64,000 bases of DNA, taken from contig JAJTZB010000005.1 in the NCBI GenBank assembly GCA_032906765.1, positions 62,001 through 126,000 of the forward strand, read 5' to 3'. A program made the translations under genes and the position numbers. Positions 9,014 through 11,185 of the stretch are shown here, piece by piece. Below the pieces are notes generated by a model that made no database searches, had not been told where the DNA came from, and saw nothing but the letters and a program-made list of their open reading frames with translations. Within the stretch, counting starts at the first letter, position 1; each line of letters opens with the position of its first letter. This DNA is from Nitrososphaerales archaeon (lineage in GTDB: Archaea > Thermoproteota > Nitrososphaeria > Nitrososphaerales > Gagatemarchaeaceae).

Positions 9014-9586
9014 TTGACTCTGAGCGAGCTTGAGGAGATAATCAATGAACGACCAAGCCTAAGGGGAATCATCTCAGGGTTCTTGGCCGAATACAAGGTC
9101 AAGAAGATGTGGTTCTCCGACCCGAGAATAACCGAAGTCGGGAGGTTCAGCGATCATGACAGGGAACACAAGAGCGATCTCGTGGTGACCTACGGGGGTC
9201 ATCCCATCACCGTCCAAGTCAAATCGCTCCAGTCCAATAGCGTCAAGTCCGATGGTGAGACATGGACTGGAAAGTTCCAATGCGATGCAAGCGACAAAAG
9301 AAATGTGAGGTTGCCAAACGGTAGCACCCTCGAAACGACCTGCTTAGTGATCGGCGGATTCGACCTCCTCGCCGTTAACTTGTTCGAGTTTGGGCGTGAA
9401 TGGAGATTCGCATTCGCCCGCAACAAGGATTTGCCACGATCTACGTTCAAGAAATACCCGCCCCGACAAAGGAAGTATCTGCTTGCAACCTTGATGGATG
9501 TCTCTTGGCCTCTTGAGGAACCATACGAACCTGAGCCTTATCATCTGCTTGATGAGATAATTGGGGAGAAAAGAGGCAAAACCTGA
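9014..9586 (+). CDS. Putative PD-(D/E)XK restriction endonuclease
   Basis: 190 residues. A nuclease core is suggested by SDLVVTYGGHPITVQVKSLQ (about residues 55-74), in which the Asp and the Val-Gln-Val-Lys match the D...(D/E/Q)xK catalytic pattern of PD-(D/E)XK enzymes, here with Gln in the middle position. A later FDLLAVNLFEFGREWRFAFA is typical of restriction nucleases of this fold. The start is TTG, preceded by GGGGG. It is convergent with a DPPY DNA methyltransferase, which supports a restriction-modification role. Recognition sequence is unknown. Confidence 0.6.
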   Translation: MTLSELEEIINERPSLRGIISGFLAEYKVKKMWFSDPRITEVGRFSDHDREHKSDLVVTYGGHPITVQVKSLQSNSVKSDGETWTGKFQCDASDKRNVRLPNGSTLETTCLVIGGFDLLAVNLFEFGREWRFAFARNKDLPRSTFKKYPPRQRKYLLATLMDVSWPLEEPYEPEPYHLLDEIIGEKRGKT

Positions 9587-9842
9587 CTACGGGAAATTCT
9601 ATCGGGTAGTATCTACTCGTAAAGTCGGAGGCCAAATCCACCAACTCGTTAAGTTCAGGATGCCTAAGGTGGGAAGAGACAAAAGACGAAGAATCATAGA
9701 TAGTGCCTTCGAGAAGAGCGGGGCAGATGCCTTTGTGGAATGCTTCTGGACAAGAGGGAGTATTATCTACAAGAACAAGTGGTCATTCGACGCGATTCTG
9801 ATTTTTGATCGAAGCGACCTTCCTAAAGACAAGAAAGTATGA
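9561..9842 (+). CDS. Hypothetical protein linked to the nuclease
   Basis: 93 residues, basic, no recognised domain. It starts at TTG 9561 inside the end of the nuclease gene, so the two are probably translationally coupled, and its 3' end overlaps the end of the convergent methyltransferase by 60 bases. Tight overlap on both sides suggests a component of the cassette, possibly a specificity or accessory subunit. That role is inference from position only. Confidence 0.5.
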
Positions 9843-10529
9843 GTGGTTCTTTCTCGCATGACGTTGCTTCACTATCCTGCTGACGCTCGGTTTGTTGGTT
9901 CTGACCACGACGAACAAGTCCTCGGTAACAAATCCCATGCTCTCGTATTTGTTGATGATCTGGACATGGGTAAGATGTTGCTTGTTCGCGCTCACCTCAT
10001 CTTGGCATTTTACAATCAAGATGCCATCCTTCCGTAACACCCTGTTGGCTGCAGCGCCAGCCTTGAAGTAGAGGGCGGTCACTGCATCGTGCCACTTGGG
10101 ACCTTCCTCAAGTGTGGCCTTGCCGTTGGAGTAATACTCCCTAAACGCGACGTGGCTTCCAGAGCCAGCCAAGTGTTCTGCTTGTTTTCGGTAGAGTCCT
10201 TCCATGTATGGCGGGTCTAAGACCAGACAATCAATCGCGCCGTCTTCATAGGGCAAGTTACGACAATCAACTCCCGTTTCGATATCTGTCGCCCTGAGCT
10301 TGTAAGCGCCTTTTGGAACCTGCCTCCAGAAGACCCCCTTCCCGTATGTCACATCTGCCACCACCGAACCCTGAGGCACAAACAGCTTCAGAATCTTCGG
10401 GAATACCTCGTCGTTATTCCCCACATAAGCCGAGAAGGTAAGGTCAGAGGTTGTCCTCCCTCCTTGCCTTCGCTTCCCCTTTACAGGATGTGCAGGACTC
10501 ACGATGGTTAGCCCTCGATCATCCATCAT
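9783..10529 (-). CDS. DNA methyltransferase (N4-cytosine/N6-adenine type)
   Basis: About 248 residues. Motif IV is LDPPYMEG near residue 112-119, the catalytic DPPY of amino-methyltransferases acting on [17 protein letters not shown] near 69-82 is a variant of the SAM-binding motif I, in which the usual FxGxG is DVTYGKG. The enzyme should protect DNA from the convergent nuclease at 9014. I chose the ATG pair at 10529; a GTG at 10571 would extend the protein into the transposase remnant. AGGAAGG lies 10-17 bases before that start. Confidence 0.8.
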
Positions 10530-10531
10530 CT

Positions 10532-10822
10532 TTAGCCCTTCCTCGAAGCATTCTGTATCAGCGTTCTCCACTTGTCCTCGCCCTCGACCCTGATTCCAGC
10601 CTTATCTGCGGGGGTCTCCCCCTTCAGCCCTTCATGCCGTCGGATGTAGTTGTGGTATATCTGCACCCCCTTCAGAATGGGTGTATCCATCCGCTTCAGC
10701 CCGTGCATGACCTTCCCTCTGTCGCGGACTTTGTAGGAGAACCCGTCTACCCTGCGAACCCATCTTGACTCGTGGACGATTGATTCGTCCCTCGCCTCTC
10801 GGAAGTCGGATGCGGGATTCAT
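10532..10822 (-). pseudogene. C-terminal remnant of a DDE transposase
   Basis: 96 residues that match only the last part of archaeal DDE-type transposases: RDRGKVMHGLKRMDTP, then [22 protein letters not shown] and KWRTLIQNA. The N-terminal helix-turn-helix and the two catalytic Asp regions are absent, and the usual (V/I)ER that supplies the catalytic Glu reads DGFSYKV. It cannot transpose. Its ATG overlaps the TGA of a 31-codon ORF, and its end adjoins the methyltransferase start, so it is probably co-transcribed within the cassette. It could be debris or a reused DNA-binding fragment. Confidence 0.65.
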
Positions 10823-10914
10823 TTGTCCATTCCTTCACGCCAGCTCTGTAGGGCTCCGAGTCTCTCGAAGTATTCCCTGTCGCCCATTTCTGCGCGGAGT
10901 TCGTCTGGTTGCAT
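10819..10914 (-). CDS. Small ORF (31 residues) at the head of the methyltransferase operon
   Basis: MQPDELRAEMGDREYFERLG is a protein-like, acidic amphipathic start. ATG 10914 lies about 25 bases after a reverse-strand TATA-like TAATATAT (10935-10942) that abuts operator 1. The stop overlaps the next ATG as ATGA. No homology is recognised. It may be a leader peptide or a small regulator. Confidence 0.4.
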   Translation of the reverse strand: MQPDELRAEMGDREYFERLGALQSWREGMDK

Positions 10915-10924
10915 GGCATACCAT

Positions 10925-10997
10925 TATCTACGTAGATATATTAGGATAGCGGTATCTACGGAGATACCGTGGAGGCATAGCGTTATATACGTAGATA
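10925..10997. promoter_or_regulatory. Three palindromic operators in a divergent promoter
   Basis: Three near-identical 14-base palindromes: TATCTACGTAGATA (10925-10938, perfect), TATCTACGGAGATA (10953-10966, within the longer GGTATCTACGGAGATACC) and TATATACGTAGATA (10984-10997). Centres are 28 and 31 bases apart, close to three helical turns, so bound dimers would line one face. Site 1 lies at the promoter of the leftward operon; site 3 overlaps the TATA box of the rightward small gene. A repressor bound here would control both directions. Confidence 0.75.
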
Positions 10998-11011: not shown

Positions 11012-11185
11012 ATGCCAAAGTGGCAGAAAGATGCTACGGAGTTCACGGTGGGAGTCAACTACCGCGAGGATAGGGGAGCGCAGTGTTCGATTCCGAAGCC
11101 AGTGTTCGAGACACTCGGCAAGCCTGATCGGATTACCTACGTGCTGAAGAGGAAGCGCGTGGAGGTGAAGCCTTCCCCAGACTGA
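11012..11185 (+). CDS. Small AbrB/MazE-like protein, probable cassette regulator
   Basis: 57 residues. The middle part (VGVNYREDRGAQCSIPKPVFETLG) resembles the swapped-hairpin AbrB/SpoVT fold, in which a short strand, a Pro-containing turn and a dimer interface bind DNA; the match is weak. ATG 11012 lies about 25 bases after the TATA-like TTATATAC at 10983-10990, so the message is probably leaderless. Because operator 3 overlaps that box, this protein is the best candidate for the repressor of the divergent cassette. Confidence 0.55.
   Translation: MPKWQKDATEFTVGVNYREDRGAQCSIPKPVFETLGKPDRITYVLKRKRVEVKPSPD

Follow-up and report, generated by a model that had tools for sequence, protein, structure and literature searches.

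A predicted AbrB-like repressor and a putative palindromic operator array in the probable control region of a decayed archaeal insertion sequence

Organization of the locus

The window analysed here is the whole 64,000-nucleotide stretch of DNA from a Nitrososphaerales archaeon (GenBank assembly GCA_032906765.1, contig JAJTZB010000005.1, positions 62,001 to 126,000), and the region of interest is an intergenic segment flanked by two divergent gene starts. The features that bear on its interpretation are listed below in window coordinates.

9014-9586, plus strand: 190-residue nuclease-like ORF, convergent with the methyltransferase gene; read as a nuclease by eye
9561-9842, plus strand: 93-residue ORF between the nuclease-like gene and the methyltransferase gene; no match in Pfam or NCBIfam
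9783-10526, minus strand: DPPY DNA methyltransferase gene (N6_N4_Mtase-like), starting a few bases after the transposase remnant; PF01555 match at 6e-5, below the cut-off
10532-10822, minus strand: transposase remnant, a 96-residue ORF in which profile positions 1-26 are fused in frame to positions 302-363 of 363; weak match to Pfam rve_2
10819-10914, minus strand: 31-residue leader ORF (MQPDELRAEMGDREYFERLGALQSWREGMDK, followed by a stop), overlapping the next start (ATGA); leader conserved in relatives
10925-10938, no strand: candidate operator 1, TATCTACGTAGATA, no mismatches, beside the divergent minus-strand start; homologous sites in relatives
10936-10943, minus strand: putative TATA box of the minus-strand operon, TAATATAT, placed by how far it lies from the start codon at 10914
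10953-10966, no strand: candidate operator 2, TATCTACGGAGATA, one mismatch, the middle site
10984-10997, no strand: candidate operator 3, TATATACGTAGATA, one mismatch, overlapping the putative TATA box of the repressor gene
11012-11185, plus strand: gene for a 57-residue AbrB/MazE-like swapped-hairpin protein, a candidate autorepressor (family search, AlphaFold2 model and fold matches)

Three 14-bp palindromes lie between the two divergent starts at start-to-start spacings of 28 and 31 bp, as the preliminary description of this DNA had reported. When up to three mismatches to the palindrome pattern are allowed, the window contains four matches, compared with 0.73 expected from shuffling. Across the 1.77-Mb genome no copies other than these three have one mismatch or none; a threshold of two mismatches adds a single two-mismatch site on another contig, and a reversed-pattern control at the same threshold gave no match. 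The three palindromes are real candidates for the binding sites of the small repressor, with binding itself putative. They had also been described as phased, a term that did not survive: spacings of 28 and 31 bp correspond to approximately 2.7 and 3.0 helical turns and the spacing in relatives is 17 or 27-28, so helical phasing was rejected as not conserved.

The motif TATATA falls within site 3, 28 bases ahead of the ATG of the 57-residue ORF, and site 1 touches the TAATATAT box; the divergent ORF has its ATG about 25 bases away from that box, at 10914. Either distance would fit archaeal TATA boxes of leaderless genes. Provided that the genes are indeed leaderless, the sites would cover both core promoters, since the two putative TATA boxes overlap or touch sites 3 and 1. 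This agrees with the earlier proposals that the sites occupy both promoters and that one of them overlaps the TATA box of the small gene.

The same description had called the divergent cassette restriction-type, whereas its first minus-strand ORF is the 31-residue leader, and what follows the leader is the transposase remnant and not a restriction gene. The remnant lacks profile positions 27-301 (about 275 internal codons), a deletion that removes the SWIM zinc finger, the zinc ribbon and the DDE core and leaves a decayed, non-autonomous remnant in place of an intact transposase. A conserved leader with a coupled stop and start precedes the transposase gene in six related loci (L036, L039, L041, L187, L188 and L220).

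Predicted fold and relatives of the 57-residue protein

The 57-residue protein (P0001) gave no family match in Pfam, NCBIfam or PADLOC and no meaningful sequence match in a profile search of the PDB; the PF04014 profile matched neither P0001 nor the three relatives that were checked. Because the sequence profiles gave nothing, the family assignment was settled by fold comparison. The AlphaFold2 monomer model (35 aligned sequences; pLDDT 85.7) has the order strand-strand-helix-strand-strand, with strands at residues 16-18, 22-24, 41-46 and 49-54 and a helix at residues 29-34. In the PDB, MazE (TM 0.63), VapB, the N-terminal domain of AbrB and SpoVT are its top matches by fold; the short chain accounts for their weak E-values. 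The model thus supports a place in the swapped-hairpin superfamily, and the earlier label 'AbrB-like' is appropriate for the predicted AbrB/MazE-type topology, although not for the sequence.

Swapped-hairpin regulators contact DNA through a region that precedes an 'IP' motif, and antitoxins typically autoregulate from a short intergenic region. P0001 resembles MazE, VapB and AbrB in its predicted topology and in this pre-'IP' region, but its family differs from them in that no toxin-gene partner was seen, there is no Pfam match, the commonest partner is a transposase and the DNA target has diversified.

Of 300 genomes from the order (Thaumarchaeota in NCBI names), 45 have a homologue of P0001; they represent 21 of 64 genera, and the named records include Nitrosopumilus, Nitrosarchaeum, Nitrososphaera, Nitrosocosmicus, Cenarchaeum and Nitrosopelagicus. 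Homologues accompanied by the transposase were also observed in records labelled Thermoplasmata and Gammaproteobacteria (L079, L089 and L094), which reflect either misbinned contigs or transfer across phyla. A viral origin of the repressor was considered and rejected: a search of viral contigs with P0001 alone found no relative, and the family alignment as query found one.

The 120 bp upstream of the repressor gene were scanned for palindromes in 83 distinct loci, with dinucleotide shuffles as the control. At least two related palindromes were found in 32 of the 83 loci, compared with 0.0 expected from shuffles of all 83. The preliminary description had named a lack of operators in homologues as grounds for refutation, and its proposal withstood this check, since arrays are retained in homologues; some homologues have no recognisable operators. 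About half of the 83 loci have a full or partial transposase gene that diverges from the repressor gene, and 27 of these 45 loci have at least two related palindromes.

The transposase partner

In relatives the divergent gene encodes a protein of approximately 365 residues that joins an IS240/IS6-type DDE domain to a SWIM zinc finger and a zinc ribbon. It matches PF13610 (DDE_Tnp_IS240) at 1.1e-13, above the cut-off, and NCBIfam NF033587 (transpos_IS6) at 4e-29, below the cut-off of that family. The intergenic region in the window most likely served an insertion sequence of Nitrososphaeria-type archaea, now decayed, as its control region, and the 57-residue protein would repress both promoters there.

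Evidence of mobility comes from two genomes. G234 contains two copies of a 1.6-kb unit (transposase and repressor gene) bounded by the inverted repeats GGTTCTTnCCCAAATTCGGAGCTT, and in G209 a 1.38-kb unit consisting of transposase, operators and repressor (L057 and L058) occupies two unrelated sites, the two copies being 87% identical in the transposase and 85% in the repressor. Inverted-repeat ends are clear in L071, L182 and L163, which belong to subfamilies with no obvious operator array; operator arrays and clean ends occur mostly in different subfamilies, with the L057/L058 pair as the exception. For the window copy and most other single copies, the search for inverted-repeat ends gave chance-level matches only. 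Duplicate copies in G274 were considered for mapping the ends and set aside as a nested mosaic. G234 also carries about 26 matches to the repressor family (L071 and L174-L185), including several copies of approximately 220 bp of the repressor region alone that share the inverted-repeat ends of the transposon; these are MITE-like and consist almost entirely of the repressor gene.

It would be possible to regard the transposase and repressor as a domesticated module, of a toxin-antitoxin or defence-like kind, instead of a mobile element. The antitoxin-type folds of the partners (MazE, CcdA/CopG and ribbon-helix-helix) fit such a module, as does the finding that most copies are single and have no recognisable ends. 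Yet the copies in G234 are bounded by inverted repeats and have given rise to derivatives, the unit in G209 is found at two unrelated sites, and decayed copies are common, that in the window included; we consider domestication very improbable.

In a wider sample of the transposase, 61 genomes yielded 28 copies with a readable 5' side. About 25 of the 28 adjoin a small regulator (24 divergent and one co-directional, as judged by reading). The regulators comprise P0001-type AbrB-like proteins, other MazE/AbrB proteins (PF04014 matches down to 1e-8) and ribbon-helix-helix proteins, the last with matches to RHH_1, RHH_6 and CcdA/CopG that all fall below the Pfam cut-offs; regulators with no Pfam match were assigned by similarity to matched ones or by eye. 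Repeats are visible in the intergenic region of many of these pairs. In ammonia-oxidising archaea and related lineages, this transposase recurs beside differing small repressors, each associated with DNA sites of its own. The genome of the window itself has further copies of the same transposase (L187-L190, on C1, C2 and C3) whose divergent regulators are of ribbon-helix-helix type, not AbrB-like, and which have repeats of their own.

Co-variation of operator and repressor

Operator half-sites and repressor sequences were compared across the 38 loci whose arrays could be read. Residue 26 of the repressor, which lies just ahead of an 'IPKP' motif, sorts the half-sites: all 11 repressors with Ser26 are associated with T at position 5 of the half-site (TATCTAC type), 13 of the 14 with Tyr, Phe or Asn26 with CAC (TATCCAC type, CCAC) and all five with Arg26 with CGT (NCGT). 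On the transposase tree the residue class and the operator switch jointly in six of six and five of five independent pairs. Resolution of the repressor tree is poor, and members of the Ser class form almost a single clade; the rule therefore in part reflects linkage within a cassette and not repeated point changes, and a reading as independently repeated substitutions was dropped as not demonstrable on that tree. The comparison is strong evidence that each repressor moves together with its matching operators, and it is no more than suggestive of residue 26 as a specificity determinant. Were the rule to hold, a change to Tyr26 would shift the preference towards TATCCACGTGGATA and a change to Arg26 towards TATCCGTACGGATA.

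Transposases that are 80-86% identical can be accompanied by repressors that are only 36-58% identical and have different operators, which implies that the silencer cassette changes faster than the transposases or is exchanged between them. In one pair of loci (L046 and L064) the flanks are similar on both sides while the transposases are 72% and the repressors 45% identical and the operators differ, the result of either replacement of the repressor or repeated insertion at one site.

Intergenic arrays linked to a transposase might instead be structural or replication elements, such as cruciforms or transposase-binding ends, and not operators of the small protein at all. This is hard to reconcile with the positions of the sites, which keep to the promoter region and away from the mapped element ends, or with their sequence, which follows the type of repressor and differs between near-identical transposases (80-86%); the chance that it is correct appears slight.

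The methyltransferase and the link to restriction

The DPPY methyltransferase behind the remnant occurs in this genome only among 250 genomes of the order and is a one-off neighbour of the small protein. The enzyme was acquired horizontally; the identity of its relatives reaches 69% for viral contigs and 62% for mycobacteriophages. A viral contig (L197, 3001-4302) has a tail-to-tail arrangement of a methyltransferase and a homologue of the nuclease-like protein (46% identity, E 6e-56) with no repressor. The pair is probably a mobile unit in its own right that landed behind the transposon promoter, because the methyltransferase is absent from the other genomes of the order and has viral relatives, and the pair stands in L197 unaccompanied by the repressor. 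We note separately that the convergent arrangement of a DPPY methyltransferase and a nuclease-like protein of approximately 190-215 residues, at 9014-10526 in the window and in L197, may constitute an undescribed restriction-modification pair; the 190-residue ORF has no family match in Pfam, NCBIfam or PADLOC.

The preliminary description had compared the small protein with the C proteins of restriction-modification systems, as an autoregulator of another fold. C proteins are helix-turn-helix proteins, and the predicted structure of P0001 is a beta-rich swapped hairpin. The likeness lies in a small putative autoregulator with repeated palindromic operators, and some relatives of P0001 have genes that overlap a methyltransferase gene. 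Unrelated methyltransferase genes lie directly 3' of the repressor gene in six other loci, with a 4-bp overlap in L070, L105, L107 and L178, a 1-bp overlap in L074 and a 78-bp gap in L156; five of the six were checked against Pfam and fall into three classes (C5, D12 and N6/N4). In L050 a methyltransferase gene is 3' of the transposase gene, as in the window. By a crude motif screen, ORFs with methyltransferase motifs are denser close to the repressor (18 in 352 kb) than further out (three in 273 kb).

These associations, together with the position of the window methyltransferase gene, which starts immediately behind the remnant in the operon presumably governed by the operators, could mean that P0001 is a dedicated restriction-modification controller and that the transposase remnant is incidental. 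Against this, the commonest partner of the repressor is the transposase, and no controller is conserved with the methyltransferase/nuclease pair, the methyltransferase being confined to one of the 250 genomes and the pair in L197 having no repressor beside it. A dedicated controller is therefore unlikely. Of the comparison with C proteins, autoregulation stands as the natural reading and the proximity to methyltransferases is real in six loci, but the conserved divergent partner is a transposase. Restriction control was rejected as the general role on these grounds and is retained as a secondary use: a C-protein-like use probably exists in a minority of the repressor family, and in the window such control would be a by-product of transposon decay.

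Discussion

For the control region of the decayed insertion sequence we propose the following mechanism. The 57-residue protein would bind the three palindromes as a dimer. As the sites appear to cover both its own promoter and that of the leader and transposase genes, both would be repressed, giving negative autoregulation and silencing of transposition. With the catalytic core of the transposase deleted in this copy, transcription from its promoter would now extend into the acquired methyltransferase gene, which would thereby come under the same switch.

Transposon-encoded repressors are known. The relatives' transposase shares the catalytic domain of the IS6/IS26 family and 'archaeal IS6', and where inverted-repeat ends are clear (L071, L182 and L163) the element tips begin with GG, but it differs from them in its added N-terminal SWIM zinc finger and zinc ribbon and in the neighbouring repressor gene. 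Reviews of the IS6 family record one member only with a passenger gene (ISDsp3) and mention neither SWIM nor AbrB partners (PMC6807381; PMC7986276). Thaumarchaeal 'IS-like transposons' of one or two genes have been described in the same organisms, and the portions of that account considered here contain no description of an adjacent repressor, an array of operators or a partner of AbrB type (Krupovic et al., 2019; PMC6563490). In Tn3-family transposons, toxin-antitoxin genes are reported inside the element and have been suggested to belong to the transposition module (PMC7157771); the present elements differ in having a lone repressor with no toxin, in being short insertion sequences and in the swapping of repressor and operator. 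Searches of the open-licence literature for AbrB with a thaumarchaeal transposase and for transposons regulated by AbrB-like proteins found nothing, nor was an insertion-sequence lineage found there whose transposase regularly has one of several interchangeable antitoxin-fold repressors as its partner, each with operators of its own.

The approximately 38 matched repressor-operator pairs form a natural data set from which a DNA-recognition rule for the AbrB/MazE fold might be derived, and the lineage suggests a way, open to test, in which DNA methyltransferases pass under the control of transposon modules. More tentatively, and at present as a possibility that we would hesitate to favour, exchangeable silencer cassettes (an AbrB-like or ribbon-helix-helix repressor with its operators) may outpace the transposase and so create phage-like immunity groups, besides being recruited to control DNA methyltransferases. 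If so, a resident repressor would silence any arriving element that shares its specificity and elements with a new one would escape, as in temperate phages, which would provide a candidate immunity mechanism for archaeal transposons.
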